Assembly (NCBI RefSeq): GCF_004944975.1
Contig: NZ_SPQG01000002.1
Coordinates: 344,212-408,211, forward strand
Length of the DNA stretch: 64,000 nt
Direction of reading: 5' to 3'
DNA from: Halorhabdus amylolytica
GTDB lineage: Archaea; Halobacteriota; Halobacteria; Halobacteriales; Haloarculaceae
Shown: one piece after another, positions 31,197 to 61,715 of the stretch
Position numbering within the stretch: position 1 is the first letter of the stretch
How the letters are laid out: each line of letters starts with the position of its first letter
Translations under genes and position numbers: made by a program
The notes under the pieces: model-generated
What the model was told of the DNA's origin: nothing
What the model saw: the letters and a program-made list of their open reading frames with translations, nothing else
Databases searched by the model: none

Positions 31197-32234
31197 TCAA
31201 TCCGCCGGGGAGACGTCAGCCGTTCTCGTGTCTTCTCGGATTGCTTTCAGGGCGCTGTAGATGACGGCACTCCCGACAGCGAGGGCCGAGAGCATAATCA
31301 GGGCAAAGCTGACGAGCTTGAGTTCGCCGATTCCATACGCGTTACCGAGTTGCCGAAGTGCGACTGCCACTGATCCCCCGAGCAACATCAGTCCGAAGTA
31401 GATCTTGATTTCGCTTTCCTCGACCAGGCTCGTGGCTGTCGAACCGATCCGGGCACCGAGGGCGCTCCCGGCGAGTAAGGGCACGACGATCGAGAGATCA
31501 ACGGCACCTTCCAGTCCGTAGAGGAACGAGCCGAGCCCGCCGGAGAAAACGATCTCGAAGAGGTCGGTCCCGACGGCGATCGGAACGGGCACGCCGATCA
31601 GGTAGAACATCGCCGGCATGCGGATGAATCCGCCGCCGACCCCGAGAAACCCGGAGAGCAATCCCGTCGCGAAGGCGACGCCGAGCACCATCCACAGTGA
31701 GACCTTGATGCCGCCCCCGATCGTCATCATCGGCGGAATGGTGTAGGACTGGATTGTCTTCGCGATGTCCGGGATCGCGTCCGGATCGATCTCCCCATTG
31801 GGGTCGTGTTGCTCTTCGATCGATTCTTCCTCGTCGTTACGGAGAGCGTTACGCGTAACGAACAGGCCGACGCCACCCAGCAGAACCACGTACGTGACGC
31901 CGACTATCAGTCCTGCCAGTCCCCGGTCCTGCAGGAAGTAGAGCCCGATCCGTCCGACTTCGATACCCGCTGTCGTCCCGACGATCATCAGCCCGCCGAG
32001 TTTGTAATCGACCTGGCCGAGGTCGCGATGCTTGAGGGTCGCGATGACGGCCGTCCCGAAGACGAAGGCCATCCCGCTGCCGACGGCCGTGGTCGTCTCG
32101 AAGCCCATGATCATCAACGCGGGCGTCACGAGGAACGACCCGCCCATCCCGAAGAACCCAAAGAGCACGCCGACCATGAAACCGAAGCCGACGAACAGTG
32201 CGATCATGCTCGCGGCGAGTCCGAACAGTTCCAT
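31197..32234 (-). CDS. TauE/SafE-family anion (sulfite/organosulfonate) exporter
   Basis: 345 residues with about eight membrane spans and the two internal repeats of the family: GFFGMGGSFLVTPALMIMG near the N terminus and GFLGVGGGFIRMPAMFYLIGVPVPIAVGTDLFEIVFSG in the second half. A long acidic loop separates the halves (residues ~135-165). TauE/SafE proteins move sulfite, sulfoacetate or related anions. It follows the small DUF7512-type gene by 3 bases, and the upstream region shares a motif with the other sulfur genes nearby. Confidence 0.9.
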   Translation of the reverse strand: MELFGLAASMIALFVGFGFMVGVLFGFFGMGGSFLVTPALMIMGFETTTAVGSGMAFVFGTAVIATLKHRDLGQVDYKLGGLMIVGTTAGIEVGRIGLYFLQDRGLAGLIVGVTYVVLLGGVGLFVTRNALRNDEEESIEEQHDPNGEIDPDAIPDIAKTIQSYTIPPMMTIGGGIKVSLWMVLGVAFATGLLSGFLGVGGGFIRMPAMFYLIGVPVPIAVGTDLFEIVFSGGLGSFLYGLEGAVDLSIVVPLLAGSALGARIGSTATSLVEESEIKIYFGLMLLGGSVAVALRQLGNAYGIGELKLVSFALIMLSALAVGSAVIYSALKAIREDTRTADVSPAD

Positions 32235-32237
32235 GGG

Positions 32238-32387
32238 TTAGAGAGTGCGAATGCGTTCGACGAGTGGTTTCGCGACGATACTCGATAATGCGCCGTACCC
32301 CAGATAGAGGACGCCCGCCTCGAGCAACACTGCGCCCACGAGCGTGGCTGCCTCCAACATCTGGGCTCCCGATCCAAGTCCGATCAT
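32238..32387 (-). CDS. Small single-span membrane protein preceding TauE/SafE (DUF7512-like)
   Basis: 49 residues: a short N terminus (MIGLGSGAQML), one hydrophobic helix (EAATLVGAVLLEAGVLYLGYGAL) and a basic C-terminal tail (KPLVERIRTL). Its stop is 3 bases before the TauE/SafE ATG. Haloarchaeal TauE/SafE genes commonly have such a tiny partner directly upstream, which suggests an accessory subunit; the family name is given from memory. Confidence 0.7.
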   Translation of the reverse strand: MIGLGSGAQMLEAATLVGAVLLEAGVLYLGYGALSSIVAKPLVERIRTL

Positions 32388-32771
32388 GCGTTTCCCCTCG
32401 TCAGTGACAGCAGTTGTGTGCGAATCATGGTTGGCTCTTCAATACTCCTTATTCCACGGGTGCGTAAAACGCTTTTGAACATATTGCACAATATTACAAA
32501 CACGTATCCGCCACGTAACCGACGAGAATATTCTCTTAAGTTATCTGGATATAGTTATCGGGGGGTCGGGACCGTCCGATAGTGTCTATCAGAAAACGGC
32601 GATAAGAGATATTTGCCGGCTATTTGGCCCGATCCACAATTCGTCAGTCGGTATGTCATCAGTATTCACGCCGAAGTGTGCGCACTGGCTCCCGATAGTA
32701 GGCCCGTCTGATGTACGAAGTAGTATTGAACAATCGAAGCAATATTATAGGGTCGGGGCCAAGTACGCCAT
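32388..32771. other. AT-rich regulatory region between TauE operon and tandem Usp gene
   Basis: 384 bp with no convincing gene and markedly more A/T than its surroundings. It must hold the promoters of both divergent units. A TATA box AATATTATA at 32741-32749 is 27 bases before the Usp ATG. Palindromic or half-palindromic ATTG...CAAT elements lie at 32481-32494 and 32725-32734. Confidence 0.6.
32481..32494. promoter_or_regulatory. 14-bp inverted repeat ATATTG-CA-CAATAT upstream of the TauE unit
   Basis: Perfect 6-2-6 palindrome about 95-105 bases before the small membrane protein start. The half ATATTGTG recurs upstream of the rhodanese operon (38281-38292 and, weaker, 38434-38442). It is a candidate binding site for a sulfur or redox regulator. 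Confidence 0.45.
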
Positions 32772-33611
32772 ATGAAGGCCGTCTACGCGACAGATCTCTC
32801 AGAAGCGAGCGAAGCCACGGTCGCCAACGAGACGTGTCTGGAGTGTTTAGACCGGATCGGTGTCGAGGAGTTTCACCTCGTGACGGTCGTCCCCTCGAAC
32901 GTCCACTCCGGGATGCCAGGGATGAACTTCGAGAAGCGTCGCCGGGCGGCGTTAGACCGCTATCGGGAGAGTTTCGAAGATGCGGGATTCGCGGTCGAGA
33001 CGCACGTCGTACGCGGGACGCCCCATCGCCGTATCAACGGGATCGCGGAGTCCGTCGGCGCGACCCTCACGATCGTCGGGTCGCGGGGTTCGAGTCCCTT
33101 GGAGAACCGCTTTATCGGCTCGACGGTCCGGAACCTCGCACGGACGTCAGTGACACCCCTGCTCGTCAACCGGATCCAGCGAGCGACCGACGATCCCGAC
33201 GTGCTCGAGGAACATCTCTTCCAGCGAATGCTATACGCGACTGACTTTTCAGAAAACGCACGAGAAGCCTTCGAGGCGTTTTCGTACCTCCGGCACGCGA
33301 CCCAGGAAGCGACGCTGGTCCACGTCCAGACGCCCGCCGATCCTGATCCGGAGGACGACCCTCGGGATCGGCTCGACGAACTAGCCGGCCAACTTCAGGA
33401 GTGGGACATCGACACGCGTCTGGACGTCCGGCAGGGTGATCCCGTCGAGGAGATCCTCGCCGCCGAAGACGAGGACGATCCGAGTACGACGCTGGTCGGC
33501 TCGCGGGGCCACAGCCGGTTACGGCGACTGTTACTCGGTAGCGTCTCTGAGGATGTCGTTGCGAAAGCGGACGGCAACGTGATGCTGATTCCGCCCAAAC
33601 GCGTCGCGTGA
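32772..33611 (+). CDS. Tandem universal stress protein (two Usp domains)
   Basis: 279 residues. Domain 1 (MKAVYATDLSEASEATVANE ... VGSRGSSPLENRFIGSTVRNLARTSVTPLLV) and domain 2 (RMLYATDFSENAREAFEAFSYL ... VGSRGHSRLRRLLLGSVSEDVVAKADGNVMLI) both keep the G-x2-G-x9-G-S/T nucleotide loop, so both may bind ATP. Tandem Usp proteins often work with anion transporters. The gene is divergent from the TauE unit and has a good leaderless-type TATA box. Confidence 0.9.
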   Translation: MKAVYATDLSEASEATVANETCLECLDRIGVEEFHLVTVVPSNVHSGMPGMNFEKRRRAALDRYRESFEDAGFAVETHVVRGTPHRRINGIAESVGATLTIVGSRGSSPLENRFIGSTVRNLARTSVTPLLVNRIQRATDDPDVLEEHLFQRMLYATDFSENAREAFEAFSYLRHATQEATLVHVQTPADPDPEDDPRDRLDELAGQLQEWDIDTRLDVRQGDPVEEILAAEDEDDPSTTLVGSRGHSRLRRLLLGSVSEDVVAKADGNVMLIPPKRVA

Positions 33612-34842: not shown

Positions 34843-36015
34843 TCACGCGATTCCAAACACGAGTACTGTCCCATAGCCCAGTCCCAACGATAGCGTGAGC
34901 GAACCGATCCACGCGAGGACGGTCACCCCCAGCTTTCGGCGGCTAACGTCGGCCCCGCCGACGGCCAGGCCGCTGCCGACGATGCCGCTGACGATGATTT
35001 CGTTGAACGAGACCGGTACACCCAGGAGGACAGCGAGCTGGGCGATCAGAAACGAGGGAACCAGTGTCGCGATCGAGCGGCGCGGCCCCAGCGAGGCGTA
35101 CTCCTGGGAGAGGGCGGTGATCATCCGCGGCGCCCCGGTCCAGGAACCGACGAGCATGCCGAGCCCGCCACCCAGCAGGATGGCGAACGTGGGCACGATC
35201 GACTGGCCGTCGAAGAGTGGGAGCAACGGGCCGACGGCCAGGCCGACCTGACTCGCGCCCGCGGAGAACGCCACGAGCGAGCCGAGCGCCAGGAGAAAGC
35301 GCCGGAGCCCACCGTTCAAGTCACGGCGCAGGTCCCAGCGGACGACGAACGCGCTCGCGACCCCTGCCAGCGCCGTGACCAGCGGGACGGCAAGCGCATC
35401 GGGGACAGGCAACAGGCGCCCCCCGGCAGCGGCGACGGTCCCACCTATACTTCCGAGGAACGCGAACTCCAAGTTCACGACCACGGCACTGACGAGCGCG
35501 GCGAGAATGGGGACGCTCAGGTCTTCGGGAACGTCCGGACGTGGGAGCGTCCGTGCGATGGCAAATGCGACAGCACCGCCACCGATCGGCGTCAGGACCC
35601 ACAGCGCGCCGACTTCGCGGTACTTCGCCCAGGCCGGGTCGCCGCCCAGCGCCAGCCCGACGCCGATCACCGCGCCAGTCACGGTGAACGCGGTCGCGAT
35701 CGGATAGCCCGTCTTGATCCCGATCGTCATCAGTCCCGCACCGATCAACAGGACGGCGATGACGCCCGTCGGCGGAAGCGTGACGCCATCGACGAGTCCG
35801 CTCCCGACGGCTTCCGAGACGTTTCCGCCCTGGGTCACCGCGCCGAGAAATCCGAGGATGCCGACGACCAGTGCCGCCCGGAGCGTCGAGATGGCGTTGG
35901 CACCCACGGCGGGGGCAAAGGGAGTCGCGCCGCTGGAGCCAGCGCCGATGACCCACGCCATGAACAGGCTCGCGAGGCTCGCGACGGCGAACAGTCCGAT
36001 CGTGGCTGGATCCAT
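34843..36015 (-). CDS. PiT-family permease (CysP-like sulfate/phosphate transporter)
   Basis: 390 residues with about eleven membrane spans. PiT signatures are seen in both halves: GAGSSGATPFAPAVGANAIST near the N terminus and VGGADVSRRKLGVTVLAW near the C terminus. The family moves phosphate, but the CysP branch moves sulfate or thiosulfate. The four-gene context (rhodanese-MBL fusion, two YeeE/YedE genes) argues for a sulfur anion. Last gene of the minus-strand operon, 24 bases behind YeeE-B. Confidence 0.88.
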   Translation of the reverse strand: MDPATIGLFAVASLASLFMAWVIGAGSSGATPFAPAVGANAISTLRAALVVGILGFLGAVTQGGNVSEAVGSGLVDGVTLPPTGVIAVLLIGAGLMTIGIKTGYPIATAFTVTGAVIGVGLALGGDPAWAKYREVGALWVLTPIGGGAVAFAIARTLPRPDVPEDLSVPILAALVSAVVVNLEFAFLGSIGGTVAAAGGRLLPVPDALAVPLVTALAGVASAFVVRWDLRRDLNGGLRRFLLALGSLVAFSAGASQVGLAVGPLLPLFDGQSIVPTFAILLGGGLGMLVGSWTGAPRMITALSQEYASLGPRRSIATLVPSFLIAQLAVLLGVPVSFNEIIVSGIVGSGLAVGGADVSRRKLGVTVLAWIGSLTLSLGLGYGTVLVFGIA

Positions 36016-36039
36016 ACGTGAGAGAGAATCGGAACGCGA

Positions 36040-36501
36040 TCAGTTCGTTCGTGATCGCCAGACGCCCTGGAGATACGCGCCGACGAACATCCCGCCGATG
36101 GCGATCAGGATCGGCCAGTTGCCGATCCCGAGGCTGGCGTACCCGGAGCCCGGACAGACACCGGAGATTCCCCAGCCCAGGCCGAAGATAACCCCCCCGA
36201 CCAGGACGTTCCGGTCGAAGGACTTCAGTCGACGGCCGTAGATGTCGCCGGTCAGCGGCGCACGCTCGCGGAGTTGCGGAACGAGAGCGAACGCGAGCCC
36301 CGAGACGATCGCCGCGCCGAACATCACGAACAGCAGACCCAGATCGACCAGTTGCAGGAAGTCCAGAACCACCTCAGGGCGAGCCATGTGACTCGCGGCA
36401 AGCCCGAACCCGAACAACAGGCCGCCGAGGAGGATCACCGGCATGAACAGCGGATGCCGGCCACTTTGCTGAGGGTCCTGCCGTGGCGTTTCGTCACTCA
36501 T
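36040..36501 (-). CDS. YeeE/YedE half-transporter B (thiosulfate-type)
   Basis: 153 residues, four membrane spans. The YeeE/YedE motif GWGISGVCPGSGYASLG carries the conserved Cys. The N terminus is polar (MSDETPRQDPQQSGRH). Its ATG overlaps the stop of half A by one base (TGATG). YeeE-type proteins import thiosulfate; archaea and some bacteria split them into two half-size genes as here. The longer upstream open frame is a shadow of half A. Confidence 0.88.
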   Translation of the reverse strand: MSDETPRQDPQQSGRHPLFMPVILLGGLLFGFGLAASHMARPEVVLDFLQLVDLGLLFVMFGAAIVSGLAFALVPQLRERAPLTGDIYGRRLKSFDRNVLVGGVIFGLGWGISGVCPGSGYASLGIGNWPILIAIGGMFVGAYLQGVWRSRTN

Positions 36502-37019
36502 CAGGGCCGCACCCCCAGGGCCATGACGACCTGGGCCGTCGCGATCGCGACAGCCAGGAAGGTGATCACGCCGACCAGTGACGTCTTCGAGCGCGAGCCG
36601 ATCCCGCAGACGCCGTGCCCGGAGGTACAGCCCTTGCCGATCCGCGTCCCGACGCCGACGAGGACCCCCCCGGCCAGCAGTCGCCACCACTGGACGTCGG
36701 TCGTCCAGACCTCGCCCTGCCAGATGACGGCGTAGACGGCCGCCCCGAGGACGATCCCGACGGTGAAGACGAGCCGCCAGTCACGCGAGGCGCGGTACTG
36801 CTGAAAGCGCGAGCGATCCGAGACGTAGGTCAGCGTCGATTCGAGGAAGGAACTCGCGCCGGGAGCGATGGCCGTGGCGGCGTAGATGACGGCCGTCCCG
36901 AGGCCGACGAACAGCCCGCCAACGGCGTAGCGGGTAATTCCTTCGGGGAACAGCGTCTCGAACAGCGAGAGGACGATCAGGTCCGGGAACGGCGATAGAG
37001 CGGTCGGGTCGAGGAACAT
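36501..37019 (-). CDS. YeeE/YedE half-transporter A (thiosulfate-type)
   Basis: 172 residues, about four to five membrane spans. The motif VGVGTRIGKGCTSGHGVCGIGSRSKTSLVGV contains the cysteines thought to pass thiosulfate or persulfide through the pore. Second gene of the operon, 9 bases after the rhodanese-MBL fusion and fused in translation to half B. Both halves together would make one full-length YeeE. Confidence 0.9.
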   Translation of the reverse strand: MFLDPTALSPFPDLIVLSLFETLFPEGITRYAVGGLFVGLGTAVIYAATAIAPGASSFLESTLTYVSDRSRFQQYRASRDWRLVFTVGIVLGAAVYAVIWQGEVWTTDVQWWRLLAGGVLVGVGTRIGKGCTSGHGVCGIGSRSKTSLVGVITFLAVAIATAQVVMALGVRP

Positions 37020-37028
37020 GCGCGTCGA

Positions 37029-38222
37029 TCAGTCTCCGGCGAGTGAATCCTGGCTGGCCGCGCAGTTGTTCGGGCCGAGTTCGAGGCGAAAGGCCTCCTC
37101 GTCGTCGATCTGATTCTGCCCCAGATTCGTCGCGATGATGTCCTCGTAGTTTGCCGGGCGGGGCGGCATGTCCGCGAGGATCAACTCGACGAAGTCCTCG
37201 ACGTCCATCGAGAGGGCGTCCATCTCGTCCCGGAGGTCGCCAAGCGGCGCGGTGTAGGTACCGTCGGCGGCGGGTTCGGCGGCGTCGCTGGTGTGGCCGC
37301 CGGCGATCAGCACGTCGTCGGAAAGCGTCAGGATGCGCTCCTGGAGCGTCTCGTAGAGCTGCCGGGCGGCGTCTTCGGCCCCTTCGTCACCGGCTTCCAG
37401 GTCCGGGCGGGCGACACTTTCGACGAACAGCCCGTCGCCGGTCGCGAGGAGGCTGTCACCCACGAGGTAGGAGGTCATTCCGGTCGTATGACCGGGAGTG
37501 TGGATCGCCTCGATCTCGACGTCACCGACGGTGAAGACGTCGCCGTCTTCGGCGGCGGTCAAAACGTCTGTGTCTTCGACGCCCCGGTCGATCGCCGCGG
37601 CTGGTAGGACGGCTTCGACGCCCTCTGCAGCGAGTGGGCGGATGCCAGAGACGTGGTCGGCGTGGACGTGCGTGTCCAGCGCGTAGACGAGGTCGGCGTC
37701 GTGTTCCGCGGCGTCTTCGAGATATCGGTCGGTGAACGCCCGAAGGGGGTCGATCACTGCGGCCTCACCGTCGTCGACAGCGAGGTATCCCAGACAGCCA
37801 CTGGAGGGCCGTTGATACTGGAAGACGGTCCCCTGGCCATCGTAGTTCGTGACTTCAACGGCCTCGTAGATCTCCGCCCAGCCGTTCATGCCCTCGGCAA
37901 CGTTGACTGCGTCGTAGCCTTCTCCCTTCAACAGACCCGCGATGTAATCGCTGGCCTCTCCCTTCGCACAGACGACGACGATCTCCTCGTCGTCCGGGAG
38001 CGATTCGAAGATGTCCTCGCCGATGTCGTCGTCGAGGAATTCGTAATACGGGACGTTGATCGCCTCGACCGACTCGCCCTCGATGTGCCACTCCTCGTAC
38101 TCGCTGCCCATCCGAACGTCGAGGATCGTGATCGCTTCCCCCTCTTCGATCCGAGACCTGAGCGTCGTCGGTTCGATCGCCGTTGCCGTTTCCTCCGGTG
38201 TCGGGAAATCCACGTCAGCCAT
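37029..38222 (-). CDS. Rhodanese - metallo-beta-lactamase fusion (persulfide/thiosulfate metabolism)
   Basis: 397 residues. The N-terminal rhodanese domain (residues ~20-120) has active-site Cys85 in VVVCAKGEAS. The MBL domain (~130-345) has HVHADH at 185-190, the GHTTG His and GDGLF Asp, like persulfide dioxygenase ETHE1. A C-terminal tail (~345-397) contains NNCAASQDS. Such fusions turn over sulfane sulfur. First gene of the operon with the two YeeE/YedE halves and PiT. A TATA-like CGCTTATGTG lies about 30 bases upstream of the ATG. Confidence 0.92.
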   Translation of the reverse strand: MADVDFPTPEETATAIEPTTLRSRIEEGEAITILDVRMGSEYEEWHIEGESVEAINVPYYEFLDDDIGEDIFESLPDDEEIVVVCAKGEASDYIAGLLKGEGYDAVNVAEGMNGWAEIYEAVEVTNYDGQGTVFQYQRPSSGCLGYLAVDDGEAAVIDPLRAFTDRYLEDAAEHDADLVYALDTHVHADHVSGIRPLAAEGVEAVLPAAAIDRGVEDTDVLTAAEDGDVFTVGDVEIEAIHTPGHTTGMTSYLVGDSLLATGDGLFVESVARPDLEAGDEGAEDAARQLYETLQERILTLSDDVLIAGGHTSDAAEPAADGTYTAPLGDLRDEMDALSMDVEDFVELILADMPPRPANYEDIIATNLGQNQIDDEEAFRLELGPNNCAASQDSLAGD

Positions 38223-38280
38223 GGTGTCGCTCGTTCGTACCGTCCGCTCGCACATAAGCGTTCTCATAGTCTTGGAAAAA

Positions 38281-38442
38281 GCACACAATATTCTCCGGGA
38301 CTGCCCACCGGCATAAATCGTCGGAGGTCTCCGACAGAGGCGACCGTTATTTGAACAACCCCCTATATTCGGGACCTTGAAGTGATTGCCATAGCGCAAC
38401 GGTATTCAGTTAGTGATTAGTAGTTCGAATAACGCACAATAC
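38281..38442 (-). promoter_or_regulatory. Two copies of a GCACAATA-type element upstream of the rhodanese operon
   Basis: GCACACAATATT at 38281-38292 and GCACAATAC at 38434-38442; on the minus strand these read AATATTGTGTGC and GTATTGTGC. They resemble the palindrome ahead of the TauE/SafE unit. The whole 38223-38511 gap (289 bp) otherwise holds no gene. Confidence 0.4.
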
Positions 38443-38511
38443 TGCTGGGATCGATAGGATCGACGCGAACGACTGTCGCGGTCGGGGTGTGCGTAACTCG
38501 TGACTCGTCGT

Positions 38512-39105
38512 TCAGTCCTCGACGCCCGCGGCCAGTTCCTCGTAGCGGTCGACGAACTTCGACTGACAGGATTGACAGCAGAAGTGATAGACGTCGCCGT
38601 CCAGTGTCGCGGTCTCTCCCTCGGTCGTCACGGTGTTCCCGCACTCCGCACACTCCGGTGCGAGTTCGCCCGTCCCGAGCTGTGGCGTCCACTCGCTGTC
38701 GGCCAGCAATCGAACGTCGATCTCTTCGATTGTCGCCAGGTCGGCATGCTCGGCCAAGAACTCCCTCACGTTACGCTGATCGACGTGGGCGATCACGAGG
38801 ACGGTGCCCTCGGCCGTCCGGAAGACGTGTTCGACTGCTTCCGCCTCGTCGATCCCGTCCGCGACGGCTCCCGTGTCGGGTCGCGTCCGGAGTTCGATCA
38901 GTACTGGGACGCCCTCTCTGAGCATCGACCGATCGAGGTCGAGCGTGAACCCTTCGATCAACCCGATCTCTCCGAGTCGTTCGACCCGATCCGAGACCGC
39001 CGGGGCCGAGAGGTCGACCGCGTCGGCGATGTCACTGTAGGGCCGCCGGGCGTCTTCGAGTAACAGGCGAAGAATGTCCCGATCCGTGTCGTCGAGTCCG
39101 CGCAT
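38512..39105 (-). CDS. Lrp/AsnC-type regulator with C-terminal TRASH metal-binding domain
   Basis: 197 residues. The N-terminal winged helix-turn-helix is LDDTDRDILRLLLEDARRPYSDIADAVDLSAPAVSDRVERL. A RAM-like sensor region occupies residues ~65-140. The C-terminal TRASH domain reads CAECGNTV...YHFCCQSCQSKF, the set of cysteines that bind copper or other soft metals. Related haloarchaeal proteins control copper responses. Here it lies directly upstream of the sulfur operon on the same strand, so it may sense metals or sulfur species and control those genes. Start ATG 39105. Confidence 0.9.
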   Translation of the reverse strand: MRGLDDTDRDILRLLLEDARRPYSDIADAVDLSAPAVSDRVERLGEIGLIEGFTLDLDRSMLREGVPVLIELRTRPDTGAVADGIDEAEAVEHVFRTAEGTVLVIAHVDQRNVREFLAEHADLATIEEIDVRLLADSEWTPQLGTGELAPECAECGNTVTTEGETATLDGDVYHFCCQSCQSKFVDRYEELAAGVED

Positions 39106-51722: not shown

Positions 51723-53027
51723 ATGACCCGTCCGAACGTTCTCGTCGTCTGTGCGGACGATCTCGGCTACGGTGACCTGGGATGTTATGGTTCGGACATT
51801 CCGACCCCGAACCTGGATCGACTCGCGACCGAGAGCGTTCGCCTCACGGACTGGCACGCGAACGGGCCGATCTGCTCGCCGACGCGTGCCTCGCTGTTGA
51901 CGGGGAAATACCCACAGCGGGCCGGAATGCCGGGTAACGGTCCCGAAGGCCATCCAGCTACGGATCCCGACGACGGGTTGCCGACGGATCAATCGATGCT
52001 TGCCACCCTTCTGGGCGACGCGGGCTATCGAACGGGCGCCTTCGGCAAGTGGCACCTCGGGATGACCGACGACGACGACCCGCTCGCAGCCGGGTTCGAG
52101 GAGTTCTTCGGGATCCGCTCCGGGTGTGTCGATTATTACTCCCATCTACAAGTCTGGCTCCAGAGCCACGGTATCCCCCCGTATCACGATCTGTGGGACG
52201 ACCGGACGGAGATCCGGCGGAACGGGGCCTACCTTCCCCACCTGATCACGGAGCGTGCGAGGGAGTTCATCGACGGCGAGACACCCTTTTTCGCGTACGT
52301 CGCGTACAACACTCCCCATTACCCGCTTCACTTCCCCCCGAGATACGCCGATCGCGTCTCCCATCTGGAGGGCGAGCGCGCCCGTCACGGCGCGATGGTG
52401 TCCGTCCTCGACGAGGGGATCGGTCGTCTTCTCGATGGACTGGAGGACGCGAACGTCGACGAAGAGACGATCGTCGTCTTCACCAGCGATCACGGCCCCT
52501 CTCGCGAGATCCGGAATCATCTGGACGGGAGTACCCGTCCGTATCGCGGTGGGTCAGCGGGACAGTATCGCGGTCACAAGTTCAGTCTCTTCGAAGGCGG
52601 AATCCGGATCCCGGGAATCGTCAGGTACCCCTCCGAGATCGACGGGGGATGGACTTCCGGAGAACTGGGTACCACGATGGATCTGCTACCGACGGTGGCG
52701 GATTACTGCGGGATCGACCTCCCCGAGGACTGCGACGGTCACAGCCTCCGGCCGGTACTCTCCGCGGGAGCGACGACACCCCACGATCGAGTCTACTGGG
52801 AGTTTCGGGATCAGGCCGCTGTCAGGGACGGGGATTGGAAACTCGTCGTCGACGGGATCGAAATTCCCCCGGACGCCGACACGGACGTCTTCGAGAGTGT
52901 CGACGGTCCCCATCTCACGAACCTCTCGGAAGATCCCGGAGAGCGTACCGATCTCACGGACGAGCACCCGAGACGTGCGACTGATCTCGCTTCGGATCTT
53001 CGTGAGTGGCAAACGAGCGTCGGGTGA
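51723..53027 (+). CDS. Sulfatase 1 (type I, CSPTR formylglycine motif)
   Basis: 434 residues of the alkaline-phosphatase-superfamily sulfatase fold. The start NVLVVCADDLGYGDLG supplies the Asp metal ligands. Cys51 in GPICSPTRASLLTG is the residue turned to formylglycine. Later motifs are GKWHLG, FTSDHGPSREI and the C-terminal DWKLVVDG. No signal peptide, so it would act inside the cell on imported sulfated sugars, next to the GH38 enzyme. Its stop abuts the convergent TrmB stop. Confidence 0.93.
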   Translation: MTRPNVLVVCADDLGYGDLGCYGSDIPTPNLDRLATESVRLTDWHANGPICSPTRASLLTGKYPQRAGMPGNGPEGHPATDPDDGLPTDQSMLATLLGDAGYRTGAFGKWHLGMTDDDDPLAAGFEEFFGIRSGCVDYYSHLQVWLQSHGIPPYHDLWDDRTEIRRNGAYLPHLITERAREFIDGETPFFAYVAYNTPHYPLHFPPRYADRVSHLEGERARHGAMVSVLDEGIGRLLDGLEDANVDEETIVVFTSDHGPSREIRNHLDGSTRPYRGGSAGQYRGHKFSLFEGGIRIPGIVRYPSEIDGGWTSGELGTTMDLLPTVADYCGIDLPEDCDGHSLRPVLSAGATTPHDRVYWEFRDQAAVRDGDWKLVVDGIEIPPDADTDVFESVDGPHLTNLSEDPGERTDLTDEHPRRATDLASDLREWQTSVG

Positions 53028-54104
53028 TCAGGCCCGTCTGACGCGGATCCCGTCGGCAGCGACGTCCTCGATCGTCGCCTTCCATCCCCCGATAGTTATC
53101 GTTTCCTCGCCGGTGTCGATCGTCAGTCCGGCGGTGGTGGGGATGACCGCGTCGAAGTTCGCGGAAATCGGTCCTCCCATCTCGTACTCGACAATCTGGC
53201 CGGTCCAGGTGTCCGGACGGCGAGAGTGCGTTTCTCTGCCTTCGACTTCCGCGATCAGCGGTGTCCCGTCGTCGAGTTCTCCCTCGAGATCGACGATGAG
53301 CCGCCACGGGTCGAGATATTTCCGTGGCAGGCCATCGTCGGGTTCGATCTCCTCCGACCCGGTCCAGATCTGCTCGGCGTAGTGCTGGAAGAGCAACACC
53401 AGATTGTGTTCCTGGGTGATGATGTACGGCTGTGATTCAGCCTGGGGATGCTTGCTGTTGAAGATGCCGTACGATCGGTCGGCGAAGGCGAACGTATCGA
53501 TACTCGGTCGGTGACGAACGGCCAGTCCGTCGGGGAACGTCGGTCCGATCACTCCTGGTCTCGGGTCGGCCTCACGGGCCTCCTCACCGTCCACGATCAG
53601 CCTGACACTCACGCCTCGCCGCACGGCGTCGGCCACCTCATCGATGACCTCGTCGTAGAGGTCGACCGGCAGTGCCATCGTCAGCCACCACTCGGCGTCC
53701 TCGATGGCCCGGCGGATGTGCCGGAGCGCCGACTCCCGGAGGTTGACGATGGTGATGAATTCGCCCGAGGATCGTTGGTGTTTGTGAAACTGGTCGAGTG
53801 ACGAGGCGATCGAGTGAACCCGGGTACTGAAGGACTCGATGCGGCGTTCTTTGAATCGTTCGAGGACCGCTTCGGGGGGTGGAGCCTGGACTACCTTGCC
53901 GGTGCTCTGCTCTTGAACCTCGATCAAACCCATCTCCTGGAGCTCGTCGATGACGTCGTAGATGCGGGGCTGGGGCACGTCCGAGGCGTCACACAGTTCG
54001 TTCGGCGTCGCCGTGCCGAGACTCACTGCGGCGATGTAGGCCAGCGACTGGTACTTCGTCAGCCCCACTTCCTGGAGTTCGTCCACCAACTGGTTCTCGT
54101 CCAT
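53028..54104 (-). CDS. TrmB-family sugar-sensing transcriptional regulator
   Basis: 358 residues from MDENQLVDELQEVGLTKYQ. The N-terminal winged helix (residues ~1-75, TPNELCDASDVPQPRIYDVIDELQEMGLIEV) is followed by a coiled linker. A phospholipase-D-like middle domain (FITIVNLRESALRHIRRAIEDAEWWLTMALP) and a C-terminal beta domain, the TrmB effector module, complete it. It likely senses a sugar of this pathway. A second ATG six codons earlier (54122) overlaps the upstream stop. Best candidate to bind the palindrome at 55122-55141. Confidence 0.9.
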   Translation of the reverse strand: MDENQLVDELQEVGLTKYQSLAYIAAVSLGTATPNELCDASDVPQPRIYDVIDELQEMGLIEVQEQSTGKVVQAPPPEAVLERFKERRIESFSTRVHSIASSLDQFHKHQRSSGEFITIVNLRESALRHIRRAIEDAEWWLTMALPVDLYDEVIDEVADAVRRGVSVRLIVDGEEAREADPRPGVIGPTFPDGLAVRHRPSIDTFAFADRSYGIFNSKHPQAESQPYIITQEHNLVLLFQHYAEQIWTGSEEIEPDDGLPRKYLDPWRLIVDLEGELDDGTPLIAEVEGRETHSRRPDTWTGQIVEYEMGGPISANFDAVIPTTAGLTIDTGEETITIGGWKATIEDVAADGIRVRRA

Positions 54105-54114
54105 GGCTCCCGCG

Positions 54115-55083
54115 TTATCCATGCTGATCGCCCGCGTTCACGGTCTGTCCTGTCTCGGGGTCGACGCGTTGCCGGCGGAGTTCGAAACTCCCGTCCTCTC
54201 TGGCCACCTCGGCGAACATCTCCCACCCGTCCTCGGACGAAAGTATATCCACGTATCGACAGGTTTCGAAAGTGTCGACACCGATCCGGGCGTCGCCAGC
54301 GGATGCCTGGTATACAGGACCATCCGGTGTCGTATCGACGAATTCCTCCAGATCAGACGAGACGGCGAGTCCTGTCCGGAGGTTCCACGTGCGCCCTTCG
54401 TCGGTCAGCCCGCTTCCGTCGTAGAAGACGAGCCAGACCGGCGCGTCGGGGGCGGGGATGACACACGAGACACGCGTGTGATGGTCGTGCCAGTACCCAC
54501 GTTCGAGGATCGGATTGTTCGGACTCCGTTGCCACGTCTCGCCGTCGACGCTCGTCGCCAGATGACCCTGCTCGGATCGGGTGTCATTGCCGGAGTAGAA
54601 CATGTAGTAGCGACCCCCGACCGTGAGAACGTACGGATCCTTGACGGTGGCACGGTCGCTCCCCCCGGCCTTCGGGCGGAGAACGTCGTGTGCCGTCGAC
54701 GGATCGAACGCCTCCGGGGAGGGGACGTCACCGAGCTTCTGTATCGTCCACTGGTTGGCACCGTGATCGACTGGCAAGTACAGCTTGAGACGACCCGTGT
54801 CGGGATCGGTCACCAGTGCAGGCCGCTCGATACTCACCACGTCTAGATCCTCGGCGGTGATCGAAGTGACCGGCTCGTACTCGGCCCGCCCCGTTCGACG
54901 ATATATGGTCACTTTTCGTCCCCGTGCGTCCGGCACCCGATCGCGCACTCCCAGGTACGTCTCCCCGCCGTGTCTGTGTACACACGGTGCCCCTGCCCAA
55001 TTCCCCTCTCCAGTCTCCCCGGGTTCGAGTACCGTTTCCGCACTCGATGGGTCGAACCCGGGTGGTGTTGCATATCCCGTCAT
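54115..55083 (-). CDS. Five-bladed beta-propeller glycosidase (GH43/GH130-like)
   Basis: 322 residues from ATG 55083 (MTGYATPPGFDPSSAETVL). The repeated blade pattern YLGVRDRVPDARGRKVTIYRR, KDPYVLTVGGRYYMFYSGND and RTWNLRTGLAVSSDLEEFV is typical of the GH32/43/62/68/117/130 propeller group. An Asp in KDPYV and Glu/Asp in other blades could be catalytic, but the exact family cannot be fixed by eye. No signal peptide. Its TATA box overlaps CTATAC at 55110-55115; the gene precedes TrmB in one unit. Confidence 0.78.
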   Translation of the reverse strand: MTGYATPPGFDPSSAETVLEPGETGEGNWAGAPCVHRHGGETYLGVRDRVPDARGRKVTIYRRTGRAEYEPVTSITAEDLDVVSIERPALVTDPDTGRLKLYLPVDHGANQWTIQKLGDVPSPEAFDPSTAHDVLRPKAGGSDRATVKDPYVLTVGGRYYMFYSGNDTRSEQGHLATSVDGETWQRSPNNPILERGYWHDHHTRVSCVIPAPDAPVWLVFYDGSGLTDEGRTWNLRTGLAVSSDLEEFVDTTPDGPVYQASAGDARIGVDTFETCRYVDILSSEDGWEMFAEVAREDGSFELRRQRVDPETGQTVNAGDQHG

Positions 55084-55121
55084 CACTTGCCGTAACGGCC
55101 CGGGGCCCCGTATAGTTTTCC

Positions 55122-55141
55122 AACAACTCTCAGTAGTTGTT
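55122..55141. promoter_or_regulatory. Operator candidate AACAACT-N6-AGTTGTT
   Basis: Perfect 7-6-7 inverted repeat in the divergent promoter between the propeller-glycosidase/TrmB unit and the ABC importer. It lies just upstream of both TATA boxes (minus CTATAC at 55110-55115; plus AAGTATTATA at 55154-55163). A dimeric regulator bound here could control both sides; TrmB next door is the natural candidate. Confidence 0.6.
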
Positions 55142-55153
55142 CTCCCCAAACCT

Positions 55154-55163
55154 TAAGTATTAT
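55154..55163 (+). promoter_or_regulatory. TATA box of the ABC importer operon
   Basis: AAGTATTATA, about 23-27 bases before the ATG at 55181, giving a leaderless operon mRNA. Confidence 0.6.
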
Positions 55164-55180
55164 ACAGGCAAGAAACAGTC

Positions 55181-57037
55181 ATGCCGCGAGACAACAAACG
55201 GCATGAATTTCCGGAAATCGAACGGCGCGAGTTGCTTCGCAACCTCGGTTTCGGTGCGACTGCCGTGGTAACGGCCGGGCTTGCGGGGTGTGGGAGTGGA
55301 GACACGACGGAGTCACAGCCAGCCGACGACGAGGGTGGGGGAACAGGGACAACTGATGGGGAAAGTCAGGGCACCACTGCACAGCAAGGGGGAACATTCC
55401 TCGACGACACCTGGAACGTTCCCACGGATCGGGTCCCGGAGAACGTTCACTGGAACGACTACAACGCGACGAACGTCGCCGGAGCGACGCGGAACTGGGT
55501 CCAGGAGTACATGATCGGGTATCGGCAGGCCGACGCGACGTACGTGCCCTCTCCGGTCTTCGAAGACCTGACTGTCGACGGGACGACGATGACCATCACC
55601 GTCGACGACAGCGTCACCTGGCACGACGGCGATCCGCTCACTGCCGAGGACGTGACAACCCAGGTCAAGATGGACATCTACATGCAACAACCCCCGGCCG
55701 ACGTCATCGAGAGCGTCGAGACGGTGAGCGATACGGAGACCGAGATCACGCTCTCGACCCAGAACCGTGAGATCGCTCTCGGCGCCTACGCCGGGCGGCG
55801 ATTCCACACGAAAGCCGATGTTTTCGGTGAGTTCGTCCAGCGCTTCGAGGAAGCCGGTTCCGACAGCGCCCGGGACGACGTCAGAGCCGACGTCGCCGAG
55901 TTCGAGGACGAGGCGACCGGGTTGGGTCCGTTCCGGATCACCGAAGCCACGACACGGCACTTCTACGGGGAGGCCCACGACGGTCATCCGGCATACGACG
56001 CGATCGAGGGACTCTCCCTCGAAGTGACACAGACGACCGGCAATCAAGGCATTCTCCAGATGGGGATTACCGGGAACATCGACTACATCGGGCCGGTCGT
56101 GCTCTCGGAGAGTGCCTTAGAGCAGTTGCCCGAGCAGTATCAGATCAATCCGATCGGCAATCTCAACGGCCACGGACTGTTCTGGAACCACGAGAACAAA
56201 CACATCCAGCGGCCGGCTTTCAGGAAGGCGATCGCGTACGTCGCAGATCGGAGACGGATCGCCCAGAACGCAGCCAGTCTCAACTTCAAGGCGCCGGTCG
56301 GAAAGCCGACCGGCATCCCAGGCATCAACCAGGATGTCCCACAGAGTTGGTTGGGTGACAACTACGAGGCCTTCACCGCCTACGAGACGAACACCGACAT
56401 GGCCACGCAGGTCCTCGAGAACGCGGGCTACTCGAAGAGCGGTGGGACCTGGCAGGGACCGGACGGCGAGACGGTGTCCCTCGAACTGGTTTACCCCGGT
56501 GGCTGGACCGACTGGGTGAACGCGGGACAGACACTCAATTCCCAGCTACAGAACTTCGGATTCGAGACGGAACTTCGTACGGTCGACGCGCCGACCTGGA
56601 ACGGCCAGACGCGACCCAACGGAGAGTTCGACATCACGCCACAGTGGTGGGGTGGCGCCCGTCCGCACCCGTTTTTCGGGTTCCGTGCCCTCACACAGAG
56701 TTCCCAGGCTGGCGACGCGAGCGTCCCGGACTCATTCGAGGTGCCGATGCCAGTCGGGGACCCGGAAGGATCGATGGAGGAGATCAACATCACGGAGCGA
56801 ACGAAGGAACTCCCACAGTTATCGGGCGAGGAAGCCACACAGACGGTCGTCGAGATCGCCTGGGCGGTCAACCAGGCTCTCCCGGTCCTCCCCATCATGG
56901 AGAAGATCGGTGCCGTGTGGTACGCCACGAACGACTGGAATGTCCCCTCCGCCGACGACGACTGGATGACGGTCAACCCGCCGACGCACCTCGCCTGGCC
57001 GTTCCACGAGGGACAGATCACCCCGCAGCGAGAATGA
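55181..57037 (+). CDS. ABC importer substrate-binding lipoprotein (family 5, oligopeptide/oligosaccharide type)
   Basis: 618 residues. The signal ERRELLRNLGFGATAVVTAGLAGC is a twin-arginine lipoprotein signal with Cys37. A Gly/Thr/Asp-rich spacer follows (~38-70), then the family 5 binding fold (TITVDDSVTWHDGDPLTAEDV; LNGHGLFWNHENKHIQRPAFRKAIAYVADR). In archaea such DppA-like proteins often bind oligosaccharides. Given the mannosidase and sulfatases around it, a (sulfated) oligosaccharide is the likely ligand. First gene of the operon. Confidence 0.92.
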   Translation: MPRDNKRHEFPEIERRELLRNLGFGATAVVTAGLAGCGSGDTTESQPADDEGGGTGTTDGESQGTTAQQGGTFLDDTWNVPTDRVPENVHWNDYNATNVAGATRNWVQEYMIGYRQADATYVPSPVFEDLTVDGTTMTITVDDSVTWHDGDPLTAEDVTTQVKMDIYMQQPPADVIESVETVSDTETEITLSTQNREIALGAYAGRRFHTKADVFGEFVQRFEEAGSDSARDDVRADVAEFEDEATGLGPFRITEATTRHFYGEAHDGHPAYDAIEGLSLEVTQTTGNQGILQMGITGNIDYIGPVVLSESALEQLPEQYQINPIGNLNGHGLFWNHENKHIQRPAFRKAIAYVADRRRIAQNAASLNFKAPVGKPTGIPGINQDVPQSWLGDNYEAFTAYETNTDMATQVLENAGYSKSGGTWQGPDGETVSLELVYPGGWTDWVNAGQTLNSQLQNFGFETELRTVDAPTWNGQTRPNGEFDITPQWWGGARPHPFFGFRALTQSSQAGDASVPDSFEVPMPVGDPEGSMEEINITERTKELPQLSGEEATQTVVEIAWAVNQALPVLPIMEKIGAVWYATNDWNVPSADDDWMTVNPPTHLAWPFHEGQITPQRE

Positions 57038-57077
57038 TCTCCCCTAGTTGCCTTCGGGCGGATGACGCCGGCCCCCG

Positions 57078-57182
57078 AACCGAGCATGAGTACACAGTTC
57101 GACGCTGGAGCCGTAGCGCCGGAGCCAGTACCTGAACGCCGCGCTCCCAAACCGAGCATGAGTACACAGTTCGACGCTGGAG
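57078..57182 (+). repeat. 33-bp direct repeat with 72-bp period before the first permease
   Basis: An identical 33-bp block lies at 57078-57110 and 57150-57182. Each holds an ATG (ATGAGTACACAG...) and ends in CTGGAG. In the second copy that end becomes the GGAGGT ribosome site of the permease. It looks like a duplication of a translation-start region. Confidence 0.8.
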
Positions 57183-57190
57183 GTCCGTGA
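57086..57190 (+). CDS. 34-residue peptide ORF made from the direct repeat
   Basis: Reads MSTQFDAGAVAPEPVPE... and ends ...MSTQFDAGGP. The motif MSTQFDAG occurs twice, at residues 1-8 and again near the end, because of the 33-bp repeat. Its TGA overlaps the permease ATG (TGATG). Whether it is translated is unknown; it might couple translation from the binding-protein gene to the permease. No family match. Confidence 0.3.
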   Translation: MSTQFDAGAVAPEPVPERRAPKPSMSTQFDAGGP

Positions 57191-58197
57191 TGCACTGGCT
57201 TATCAACCGACTGGGGAGAGCGATCTTGACCATCGTCGGGACTGTTTCGCTCTCGTTTGTCATGATCCGACTGATTCCGGGTGGGCCACTGGATTACCTC
57301 CGTGGACAGATTCGGAACCAGAATCCGGGGATGTCCAGCGACGCGATCGACGCTCTCGTCGAGGCACAAGCCGCAATAAACCCCGATCAGAGTATCGTCG
57401 AACAGTACGTTTCATACATGAGTTCTGTCTTCCAGGGAGACCTCGGGACGTCGACGTGGTACGGGGACCCAGTGAACCAGATCCTGATCGAGGCACTGCC
57501 CTGGACGCTGTTCGTGATGGCGCTGTCGCTGCTGTTCACGTTCGCGATCGGCATCGGTCTCGGTGCCGTCATGGCCTACAAGGAGGGAAGTCGTTTCGAT
57601 TACACGTTCTCCTCTGTGTCGATCTTCTTCAATTCCATCCCGTACTACGTTCTCGGCGTGCTGTTTCTGTTCGTCCTGAGCTATCAGATGGACCTCTTCC
57701 CGACCGGCGGACGGTCGAGTGACGCCGTCCCTGTCGGGTTTTCGGTCGCGTTCCTCCTCGACGCGCTCTATCACGCGGCCCTGCCCGTCCTGTCGTTTGT
57801 CCTCACGCGCTTTGGCTTCCAGGCGCTGGCGATGCGGGGCAACAGCATCAACGTCCTCGGCGAGAACTACCTCCGAGCCGCGAAAATACGGGGCCTCCCG
57901 GGCAGACGGATCGCGTTCCAGTACGTCGGTCGGAACGCGGTCCTCCCGCTTTACACTACGTTGATGATCTCGATCGGGACGATGTTCGGCGGCGCCGTCA
58001 TCTTGGAGGAGATCTTCGCCTATCCGGGCATCGGGTACTACATGTTCCAGGCGATCGATGCCCGGGACTACCCCCTCATGATGGGGGCGTTCATCATCAT
58101 CACGACGGCCATCGTCGCCGCGATCCTGTTCGCCGATCTCACCTACGGGCTGATCGATCCCCGGGCCAGTGGAGGTGAGACCCGTGAAACGTATTGA
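57190..58197 (+). CDS. ABC importer permease 1 (DppB/OppB type)
   Basis: 335 residues, six membrane spans, starting MHWLINRLGRAILTIVGTVSLSFVMIRLIPGGPLDYL, the DppB N terminus. The permease coupling motif is in NYLRAAKIRGLPGRRIAFQYVGRNAVLP (EAA loop). An ATG at 57190 follows a GGAGGT site by five bases; the GTG one codon earlier is an alternative. Its end overlaps the second permease by 14 bases. Confidence 0.92.
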   Translation: MHWLINRLGRAILTIVGTVSLSFVMIRLIPGGPLDYLRGQIRNQNPGMSSDAIDALVEAQAAINPDQSIVEQYVSYMSSVFQGDLGTSTWYGDPVNQILIEALPWTLFVMALSLLFTFAIGIGLGAVMAYKEGSRFDYTFSSVSIFFNSIPYYVLGVLFLFVLSYQMDLFPTGGRSSDAVPVGFSVAFLLDALYHAALPVLSFVLTRFGFQALAMRGNSINVLGENYLRAAKIRGLPGRRIAFQYVGRNAVLPLYTTLMISIGTMFGGAVILEEIFAYPGIGYYMFQAIDARDYPLMMGAFIIITTAIVAAILFADLTYGLIDPRASGGETRETY

Positions 58198-59245
58198 CGG
58201 CGACGACCACGACGCTGTCCCTCGAGACGATGGTTCCGCGCTGTCAGACGGGGGACAACGAGTGGACGCCGATTCGCCGTTCCGTGCCTACGAGGTAGAA
58301 CGCAGGACACGGAGACAGCGATGGGCCTACAAGTGGGACCTCTACGTCGCCTCGCCACTCCGGGTCGTCTGGAGCGACTGGCGGACGCGCGTCGGCGTCC
58401 TCATCGTCGTCTTCTACCTCCTGATGGGGACGGTTGGCGTCGTCCTCGTCCCCCCTCCCGAGACGAACCAGGGGGCGCTCCACACCCAGCCCTTCCAGAC
58501 GATGGCCCACCCCCTCGGCACCGACGGTCTCGGACAGGACATGATCAGCCTGATTGTCCACGCGACGCCGCCGATGCTGGAGATGATGCTCTCCGGTGGC
58601 GTCTTCGCCACGGGCGTCGCCACCGTTCTGGGGACGCTCGCCGGCTATCGAGCCGGTCGGATCGACAGCGTCCTGACGACTGTCATGGACATGGCCACGG
58701 CCATCCCGGGCCTCCCGCTGGCGATCGTGGTCGCCACAATCCTCCAGCCGGAATCCCCCTGGGTCGTGGGTATCGTGCTGACGATCAATGTATGGGCCGG
58801 ACTCGGGAGGTCGATCCGCTCACAGGTACTGACACTCCGCGAATCCGATTACGTCGAAGCGTCGCGCACGATGCGGATTCGGACGCCCAACATCATCGCC
58901 AGGGACATCGTTCCGAACATCATGCCCTACATCACGATCAACTTCGTCAACGCCGGCCGTATCGTCATCTTCAGCTCCGTGGCGCTGTACTTCCTGGGCG
59001 TTCTGCCGTTCACAAACACCCACTGGGGCGTGACGATGAACCGCGCCTACCGCAATTCCGGCGCGCTGTACTCGCTGGGTGCGTCCTATACGCTCCTCAT
59101 TCCGATGATCGCCATCATCGTCCTTTCACTGGGGCTCGTCCTCCTCTCCCAGGGGGCGGATCGGATCTTCAATCCCCGGGTGCGGGCGCGACGGTCGAAG
59201 ACCATTTCCGACTCCGAAGATCCCGGCACGGGAGGTGCGCGATAG
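58184..59245 (+). CDS. ABC importer permease 2 (DppC/OppC type)
   Basis: 353 residues from GTG 58184 with GGAGGTGA six bases upstream, chosen over an in-frame GTG five codons earlier. A long polar N terminus (~60 residues) precedes six membrane spans. DppC marks include HPLGTDGLGQDMISLIVHATPP and the EAA loop YVEASRTMRIRTPNIIARDIVPNIMPY. Works with permease 1 and the two ATPases as the importer core. Confidence 0.92.
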   Translation: MKRIDGDDHDAVPRDDGSALSDGGQRVDADSPFRAYEVERRTRRQRWAYKWDLYVASPLRVVWSDWRTRVGVLIVVFYLLMGTVGVVLVPPPETNQGALHTQPFQTMAHPLGTDGLGQDMISLIVHATPPMLEMMLSGGVFATGVATVLGTLAGYRAGRIDSVLTTVMDMATAIPGLPLAIVVATILQPESPWVVGIVLTINVWAGLGRSIRSQVLTLRESDYVEASRTMRIRTPNIIARDIVPNIMPYITINFVNAGRIVIFSSVALYFLGVLPFTNTHWGVTMNRAYRNSGALYSLGASYTLLIPMIAIIVLSLGLVLLSQGADRIFNPRVRARRSKTISDSEDPGTGGAR

Positions 59246-61428: not shown

Positions 61429-61472
61429 ACGTCCCCGATACCGCTTCGAAACTCCGTCGAGTAAGCCGACGC

Positions 61473-61715
61473 TCAGGTTTCGTCCTGGAATCGATTGCAC
61501 ACGTGGAGTACGGAACCGGAGCCGACAAGTACGATCCCGCTGATGACGGCGTCGATCAGGGCGATGACGTTCGACGCTTCGGAGATGTCTGCGAAGGCGA
61601 AGATGAGCAGCGAGACAACGAACAGCGCGCCGGAAAAGACGAAAACGATCGTGACGGTCGGACGCCGTTCGCAGACCCGCTCCAGCAACCGTTCTCGAAA
61701 GCCTTGCTCCTCCAT
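61473..61715 (-). CDS. Small two-span membrane protein, function unknown
   Basis: 80 residues: a basic/acidic N terminus (MEEQGFRERLLERVCERRP) and two hydrophobic helices (VTIVFVFSGALFVVSLLIFAFA and VIALIDAVISGIVLVGSGSVLHV). Codon use is typical of haloarchaeal coding, whereas the plus-strand frame across the same bases is atypical. It runs against the direction of the surrounding operon. No known family. Confidence 0.6.
   Translation of the reverse strand: MEEQGFRERLLERVCERRPTVTIVFVFSGALFVVSLLIFAFADISEASNVIALIDAVISGIVLVGSGSVLHVCNRFQDET

Follow-up and report, generated by a model that had tools for sequence, protein, structure and literature searches.

A dyad-marked, probable reactive-sulfur gene set in Halorhabdus amylolytica and a CX5C TrmB-family protein as its candidate regulator

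We analysed a stretch of 64,000 nucleotides of haloarchaeal DNA from Halorhabdus amylolytica (contig NZ_SPQG01000002.1; G000:C12:344212-408211 in our numbering), hereafter the window, which carries on its minus strand a rhodanese and metallo-beta-lactamase (MBL) fusion gene (RhoMBL), two genes for half-size YeeE/YedE proteins (YeeE1 and YeeE2), a gene for a PiT-fold permease and, beside them, a gene for an Lrp-type regulator with a TRASH domain (REG). Our best explanation, to which we give a probability of about 0.6, is that the four sulfur genes, together with a universal stress protein gene (Usp) and a short open reading frame paired with a TauE-type gene (sORF-TauE), form the portion found here of a reactive-sulfur regulon of haloarchaea, controlled through a promoter dyad, with a small TrmB-family protein carrying a CX5C cysteine pair as the best candidate for the regulator and with REG as a leftover copA regulator. 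The parts of this set are of known kinds; the regulon and the candidate regulator were not found in the searchable literature, outside which most subscription journals lie. The sequence directly shows gene order, domains, the dyads and where they occur, and the copA synteny; substrates, transport direction, the binding protein and its signal, and the loss of copA are inferred.

The sulfur operon and its promoter dyad

RhoMBL (37029..38222, 397 amino acids), YeeE1 (36501..37019, 172 amino acids), YeeE2 (36040..36501, 153 amino acids) and PiT (34843..36015, 390 amino acids) follow one another on the minus strand. The gap from RhoMBL to YeeE1 is 9 bp, YeeE1 and YeeE2 overlap by one base (TGATG), and the gap from YeeE2 to PiT is 24 bp, so that the four genes look like one operon. 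RhoMBL probably starts with the ATG at 38222 (MADVDF...) and not with the TTG at 38399. REG (38512..39105, minus strand) lies 289 bp from RhoMBL, and this gap holds a promoter block conserved across the genus. The initial annotation described five genes on one strand, overlapping or near-touching; gene calls with Pfam and NCBIfam searches bear out all five on the minus strand, and the tight packing holds for the four sulfur genes and not for REG. Among 60 RhoMBL-centred loci of other family members (L119-L178), RhoMBL, YeeE1 and YeeE2 are consecutive in 45, with PiT next in 30, which argues that the gene set is not due to chance. On the whole, RhoMBL has some match in 145 of the 146 family genomes, and the best rows listed are mostly full length.

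Based on alignments of promoters from the genus and the family, an inverted repeat of the form TAGTATTG-N11-CAATACTA, here TAGTCTTG-N11-CAATATTC, is located at 38267..38293 in the RhoMBL promoter, just upstream of the presumed transcription factor B recognition element (BRE) and TATA box (about 38251-38264, read by eye). It is conserved in seven aligned genus members, with or without REG, and is present in other genera too, where one expression with fixed spacing describes 54 of 68 RhoMBL upstream regions; the other 14 fall outside it, 6 of the 54 were dropped as misaligned, and a matrix was built from the remaining 48 arms. A protein binding this dyad would set transcription.

With the matrix of one RhoMBL arm we then scanned the 150 bp upstream of every called gene in the fetched loci, including 80 named loci, at the 99% level of block-shuffled sequence and with the three observed spacers. 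Overall, the dyad is detected before TusA in 73 of 78 cases, before Usp in 60 of 80 and before thioredoxin in 47 of 68. RhoMBL genes in the class of at least 60% have it in 57 of 87 cases, which are partly training sites, and those below 60% in 7 of 34. The gene of the CX5C TrmB protein carries it in 45 of 135 cases, 37 of these with a compact 2-bp spacer, and CoADR-like and DUF302 genes in 2/6 and 2/8. As controls, other genes have the dyad in 136 of 1922 cases, REG in 1 of 31 and copA in none of 42, and the operon-internal genes YeeE2 and PiT in 0/96 and 1/58. A first scan, with all spacers from 0 to 13, had a higher threshold and lower counts and gave the same top ranking (TusA 48/57, Usp 31/37, RhoMBL of at least 60% 34/69, TrmB 8/50, thioredoxin in the genus 4/7; REG 3/30, copA 0/30, TauE 0/53, other genes 80/1074). 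Its unlabelled matches, named by sequence inspection, include a second TusA-like gene and SQR, CoA-disulfide-reductase-like, DUF2892, DUF302 and thioredoxin-type genes.

Exact matches to the core TATTGN11CAATA number 25 across the seven genus genomes, in which the reversed pattern has none. In 142 family genomes there are 294 cores (116 genomes with a match) against 46 reversed ones (35 genomes), and without the genus 269 against 46. Within the window, cores with at most one mismatch are present at three places only, namely the promoters of RhoMBL, Usp and sORF-TauE, and the reversed pattern is present once. Elsewhere in the same genome, a perfect dyad at G000:C5:5341-5361 (L193, L210) stands 58 bp before a gene that by inspection is DUF302-like, and likewise in G069 (L216).

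The sulfur cluster in fact reaches past the five genes first annotated, to Usp, sORF and TauE with their related promoter elements. Usp (32772..33611, plus strand), a tandem universal stress protein and by domain search and dyad scan a probable regulon member, sits between the operon and the sORF-TauE pair of the minus strand. In this pair a 49-amino-acid reading frame (32238..32387), recognised by genus alignment and found by a script filter in 5 of 6 aligned genus loci, is directly 5' of the gene for a TauE/SafE-family exporter (31197..32234), identified by domain search, with sulfite as its probable cargo. A reading frame of 70 amino acids, likened to sORF by size alone, also lies 5' of TauE in L102 and L164. 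The core scan places a dyad TAGTATTG-N11-CAATATTA 5' of Usp at 32721..32747, with a perfect 10-letter core at 32724-32744, and a compact dyad TATTGCACAATA at 32482..32493, 5' of the sORF-TauE transcript. The compact pattern TATTGYNCAATA is rare, with two matches in the genome of the window, TATTGCACAATA before sORF-TauE being one of them; in the rest of the genus the only match is a one-strand one in G073, the other five genomes having none, and the control pattern matches once, in G071.

A TrmB-family candidate for the dyad-binding protein

Judged from its sequence and its gene company, the best candidate that we infer for the binder of the dyad, and for a sensor of persulfide, is a TrmB-family protein with a single winged helix-turn-helix (wHTH) of PF01978 and an N-terminal CX5C pair, encoded in the genome of the window at G000:C1:71113-71463, beside a thioredoxin gene. 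The cysteine pair is present in 48 of 50 TrmB proteins, and C11 and C17 are invariant in seven aligned rows. In the 60 RhoMBL-centred loci of other family members a small TrmB gene is found in 39, typically next to TauE. From 325 TrmB-centred named loci we kept 80, of which 78 are readable; the gene directly upstream is TauE in 38 of the 78, and 19 have thioredoxin immediately alongside. Of the 78 TrmB genes, 58 have one of the listed sulfur genes within 6 kb; as a rough control, the same holds for 6 of 78 positions drawn at random from REG-centred and PiT-paralogue loci. Among the 80 loci kept, the gene of highest identity (84%) to the copy in the genome of the window is that of Halapricum hydrolyticum (L225), which has the same divergent thioredoxin. 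Within the genus the two genes are divergent in all seven genomes, and the gap between them holds forms of the dyad at the thioredoxin promoter, 4 of 7 being over the strict threshold of the first scan, and looser ones at the TrmB promoter.

The best solved relative of the candidate is MM_1094 (3r0a), which the accessible text of PMC9426492 names as the template for OxsR. The features of the arCOG02242 TrmB-type thiol regulators, a single wHTH of PF01978 and N-terminal cysteines, are all found in the candidate, the assignment being one by features. OxsR (HVO_2970) and HVO_1360 of Haloferax, which belong to this group, resemble the candidate in the single wHTH, the N-terminal cysteine or cysteines and the template 3r0a. 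Only one paper in the searchable literature names HVO_1360. It is an OxsR paralogue, raised as a possible partner of OxsR and with no regulon given, and its C15 and C21 show the spacing of the CX5C pair (PMC9426492, in the part available); its orthology to the candidate rests on this cysteine spacing alone. OxsR, unlike the candidate, has one cysteine, and its reported motif is CG-rich (same source).

The dyad might instead be bound by some other redox or sulfur regulator, such as an OxsR-type TrmB paralogue or an ArsR-type protein, the CX5C TrmB gene then being merely a member of the regulon. Weaker TrmB-type matches do occur in each genus genome, a regulon is often controlled from a gene located elsewhere, and our candidate was drawn from the labelled neighbours of regulon genes. 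However, the CX5C TrmB gene recurs beside regulon genes and bears the dyad in its own promoter as counted above, and the OxsR motif does not look like the dyad, so that we consider such a binder unlikely. For the CX5C TrmB protein itself, we put at even odds the fuller proposal that it is a haloarchaeal persulfide sensor, which through TAGTATTG-N11-CAATACTA or the compact TATTGNNCAATA would run a reactive-sulfur regulon of rhodanese-persulfide dioxygenase, YeeE halves, TusA-DsrE, Usp, thioredoxin and probably TauE, SQR and DUF302/DUF2892 proteins, and would thus play the role that BigR/SqrR and CstR, from unrelated families, play in bacteria. It would switch upon oxidation or persulfidation of its cysteines.

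The Lrp-TRASH gene and its copA lineage

The initial annotation suggested that the operon is under REG. REG has an AsnC-type HTH and matches PF24273 (TRASH_HVO_1752_C) at 80.5 bits against a cut-off of 27, and the TRASH cysteine pattern is intact in REG and in 28 of 28 relatives above 50% identity. It is alike in domain make-up, and its relatives in their copA neighbourhood, to the Lrp-TRASH proteins VNG1179C of Halobacterium and HVO_1752; unlike in that lineage, no copA is adjacent to REG in the window. The accessible part of PMC3600143 describes a haloarchaeal Lrp-TRASH protein, spelled VNG1197C there, that activates a P1B ATPase in a Cu(II)-dependent manner, and that of PMC4236453 suggests Cu(II) as the effector of VNG1179C.

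In a tree of 31 Lrp-TRASH proteins, copA is within four genes in 26 rows, neither copA nor the sulfur operon is near in 3, and the remaining 2 are the window and G068; copA is thus beside the regulator in 26 of the 29 other rows. REG clusters with the proteins of G068, G069 and G070 in a five-row clade with support of 99/99, which includes one long-branch row (L084). The order in G069 and G070 is regulator-copA-RhoMBL-YeeE1-YeeE2-PiT, G070 having two small genes before copA; this pair (L090, 7571-8439) also separates regulator and copA in L083 and L102. In G068, as in the window, copA is missing at this spot and REG adjoins the sulfur operon. The other three of the seven genus members (G071, G072 and G073) have the sulfur operon without REG beside it, and REG is absent from all 60 RhoMBL-centred loci of other family members. 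No convincing remnant of copA is found in the gap between REG and RhoMBL, where the sole tblastn match has 9 residues (E 4.4). The genome still has copA genes elsewhere; the best of those that are intact shares 71% identity with the G069 copy and is located beside another TRASH regulator (G000:C2). At G000:C20:121447-124250 a copA-like gene is matched in three pieces, which may be a decayed copA or an assembly fault.

The simplest account, by parsimony and not as proof, is that regulator and copA form an old unit, which in some genus members stood ahead of the sulfur operon, and that the lineage of the window has lost copA; the Lrp-TRASH gene would then be a copA regulator left beside the operon after this local loss. 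REG thus probably belongs to the copA-regulator lineage and is probably not the regulator of the operon. As the leading explanation, control by the Lrp-TRASH protein was set aside on account of the copA synteny, of the operons without REG and of the promoter block that stands without it.

A narrower form of this idea is that REG, with copA gone, was recruited to the sulfur operon, its TRASH cysteines coupling the sensing of Cu(I) or persulfide to sulfur handling. REG does adjoin the operon on the same strand in the window and in G068, and its TRASH cysteines are intact. Moreover, it is under purifying selection without copA beside it, with dN/dS of 0.20 (0.12 for RhoMBL and 0.11 for PiT), so that REG still does something, possibly here; and sulfur genes lie within a few kb of copA in L074, L094-L097, L101 and L102, and in L103 with a distant RhoMBL relative. 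However, the operon promoter block is the same in the three sisters without an adjacent REG, the other copA genes of the genome could be served by REG in trans, and only 2 of the 20 loci chosen by REG position alone (L074, L103) have a RhoMBL or YeeE gene. The copA-promoter element TTTCGAAWCGAAA, read by eye and present with at most two mismatches in only 11 of 42 copA promoters and 0 of 121 RhoMBL promoters, is absent from the REG-RhoMBL gap of the window (best 5 mismatches). Recruitment of REG is therefore improbable in our judgement. As a separate observation, in several genera (L094, L095, L096, L097, L101, L102) copA and its TRASH regulator are only a few kb away from a TusA-DsrE/RhoMBL/YeeE set. 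These loci give no rate, because they were fetched for that proximity; there may be a copper-sulfur link at genome level even if REG does not run the operon.

The selection on REG and the copA-sulfur proximity weigh against the dyad regulon with its TrmB candidate, and several further points do so as well. The TrmB gene is located outside the window and in the genus is unlinked to the operon, and at its start the dyad is over threshold in 0 of 7 genus genomes within 150 bp and in 6 of 7 within 400 bp, a span which reaches the thioredoxin promoter; the choice of the candidate among labelled neighbours counts here too. The dyad is detected before TauE in 1 of 101 cases at 150 bp and 72 of 101 at 400 bp, where the neighbouring Usp site can be included, and before SQR in 0 of 5 and 4 of 5 respectively, the 400-bp span being able in general to take in the site of a neighbour gene. 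At TauE the genus preserves the first half-site of the compact form and the surrounding block, but not the exact form as a whole (6 loci, G070 not aligned). Finally, some genus dyads precede genes for which no sulfur role is apparent (L207/L211, L209, L214, L215), and in a family sample of 28 loci (L302-L329) from the 294 sites several dyads stand before unrelated genes or no called gene.

Predicted functions and related bacterial systems

RhoMBL joins PF00581 (Rhodanese) and PF00753 (Lactamase_B) in one chain, with the rhodanese loop CAKGEAS followed by the MBL motifs THVHADH, PGHTTG and TGDG, of which HxHxDH, PGHT and TGD align with solved chains. The ETHE1-type metal motifs and the rhodanese active cysteine in one chain are those of the Blh/CstB/PRF kind of fusion, and RhoMBL is probably a persulfide dioxygenase/sulfurtransferase, although it scores 41.6 bits on the Blh equivalog NF040641, below the cut-off of 625. 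The rhodanese-first order, which the initial annotation noted as opposite to that of many ETHE1-type fusions, is not special: full-length rhodanese-first matches are common in the family, and the sulfurtransferase domain of Blh from the bigR operon also precedes the dioxygenase part (PMC5823870, accessible text).

YeeE1 matches the C-terminal part of PF04143 (Sulf_transp) with a cysteine in GKGCTSGHGVCG, and YeeE2 matches PF20398 (DUF6691) with a cysteine in SGVCPGSG; neither half has a match among solved structures up to E 1 and E 5. The two adjacent half-size YeeE proteins with their cysteines confirm the split YeeE/YedE first annotated, and have the known form YedE1E2/PmpAB, which the accessible part of PMC10812762 reports as a zero-valent sulfur importer co-occurring with persulfide dioxygenases; transport here is predicted from sequence. 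The earlier proposal that the fusion and the YeeE halves handle sulfane sulfur or thiosulfate is backed by the domains and the gene company.

The substrate of PiT (PF01384, PHO4) is less clear. Its sole NCBIfam match is CysP (NF053884), at 64.5 bits against a cut-off of 400, and membership in the CysP sulfate permeases was rejected on this score. Membership in the phosphate permeases was rejected as well, by a weak test: the GANDVAN-type signature in both repeats, which is the mark of PiT phosphate permeases and is seen in TmPiT, is absent, the repeats reading GAGSSGATPFAPAVGANA and GASQVGLAVGPL, so that the motif departs from that of TmPiT, a solved phosphate transporter, in both. This is weak evidence against phosphate because the departure in repeat 1 is not peculiar to this protein: two more distant PiT proteins of the genome keep S-N-(I/V)-A-N-A-V-A-P in repeat 2 and miss the signature in repeat 1. 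Three close PiT paralogues (48-58% identity) exist elsewhere in the genome, two of which entered the motif alignment, the L004 paralogue being left out.

The CysP match leads to another possible reading, that the operon is assimilatory, taking up thiosulfate or sulfate for cysteine synthesis and not detoxifying sulfane sulfur; PiT would then be a sulfate permease like CysP. This reading agrees with the thiosulfate import by E. coli YeeE (PMC9774590, in the part seen). However, the match is far below the cut-off, no cysteine-synthesis gene is recognised among the genes read beside the operon, and Usp, thioredoxin and TusA-DsrE carry the same promoter element; we rate an assimilatory role as doubtful at best. 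For the reactive-sulfur regulon, in contrast, the steps are probably as follows. YeeE1 and YeeE2 would import zero-valent sulfur or thiosulfate, and the rhodanese domain would transfer sulfane sulfur to a low-molecular-weight thiol. The resulting persulfide would be oxidised to sulfite by the ETHE1-type domain, TauE would export the sulfite, and PiT might move a related oxyanion. A DsrE partner has no match in the seven genus genomes, in a search for DsrE only, with TusA outside its scope and without a positive control, so that the empty answer shows little.

The whole set is best read, by analogy, as the archaeal equivalent of the BigR/cst persulfide operons in bacteria. The bigR operon (BigR-Blh-TauE) of Xylella and Agrobacterium and the yedE1E2-pdo loci have, as here, a sulfurtransferase-first dioxygenase fusion and a TauE-type exporter; in Agrobacterium the YeeE halves are near blh, and BigR is a wHTH protein whose cysteine pair answers sulfide or polysulfide, to which we liken the candidate TrmB (PMC5823870 and PMC10812762, each in part). 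YedE1E2/PmpAB, too, is a pair of small YeeE proteins encoded side by side next to a persulfide dioxygenase, the likeness being at Pfam level only (PMC10812762, accessible text). The differences are that the sulfurtransferase domain in the window is Pfam Rhodanese and not DUF442, with the low Blh score given above, that the candidate regulator is TrmB-type and not ArsR-type, and that PiT, Usp and, in relatives, TusA-DsrE are added. For a thiol regulator over a dioxygenase and transport operon, as in the bigR and cst types, the family offers a candidate in the CX5C TrmB gene, which 39 of the 60 operon loci contain but which is unlinked in this genus. The cst operon of S. aureus (CstR, CstB) is persulfide-responsive, with a cysteine pair in its regulator (PMC9774590, in part), and CstB is a Blh-related enzyme (PMC5823870, in part). 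The cst regulator is CsoR-type, whereas the candidate here is TrmB-type. In 3r2u, which we take to stand for CstB, the MBL part is first and the rhodanese last, opposite to RhoMBL.

Apart from the sulfur cluster, the window has at 51723-63643 two sulfatase genes (51723-53027 and 62111-63643, plus strand), a gene for a TrmB-type sugar regulator (53028-54122, minus strand) and, between the sulfatases by inspection of called genes, an ABC transporter set (about 55181-61428, plus strand). This region may be a cluster for the utilisation of sulfated glycans.

Persulfide sensing in bacteria is understood through regulators of the ArsR and CsoR types. If our reading is true, archaea would own a persulfide switch of the TrmB type, the HVO_1360-type regulators would gain a function, and scattered uncharacterised haloarchaeal genes would become one regulon. 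It would also correct a tempting and probably wrong interpretation, which ties copper sensing to sulfur import by adjacency alone.

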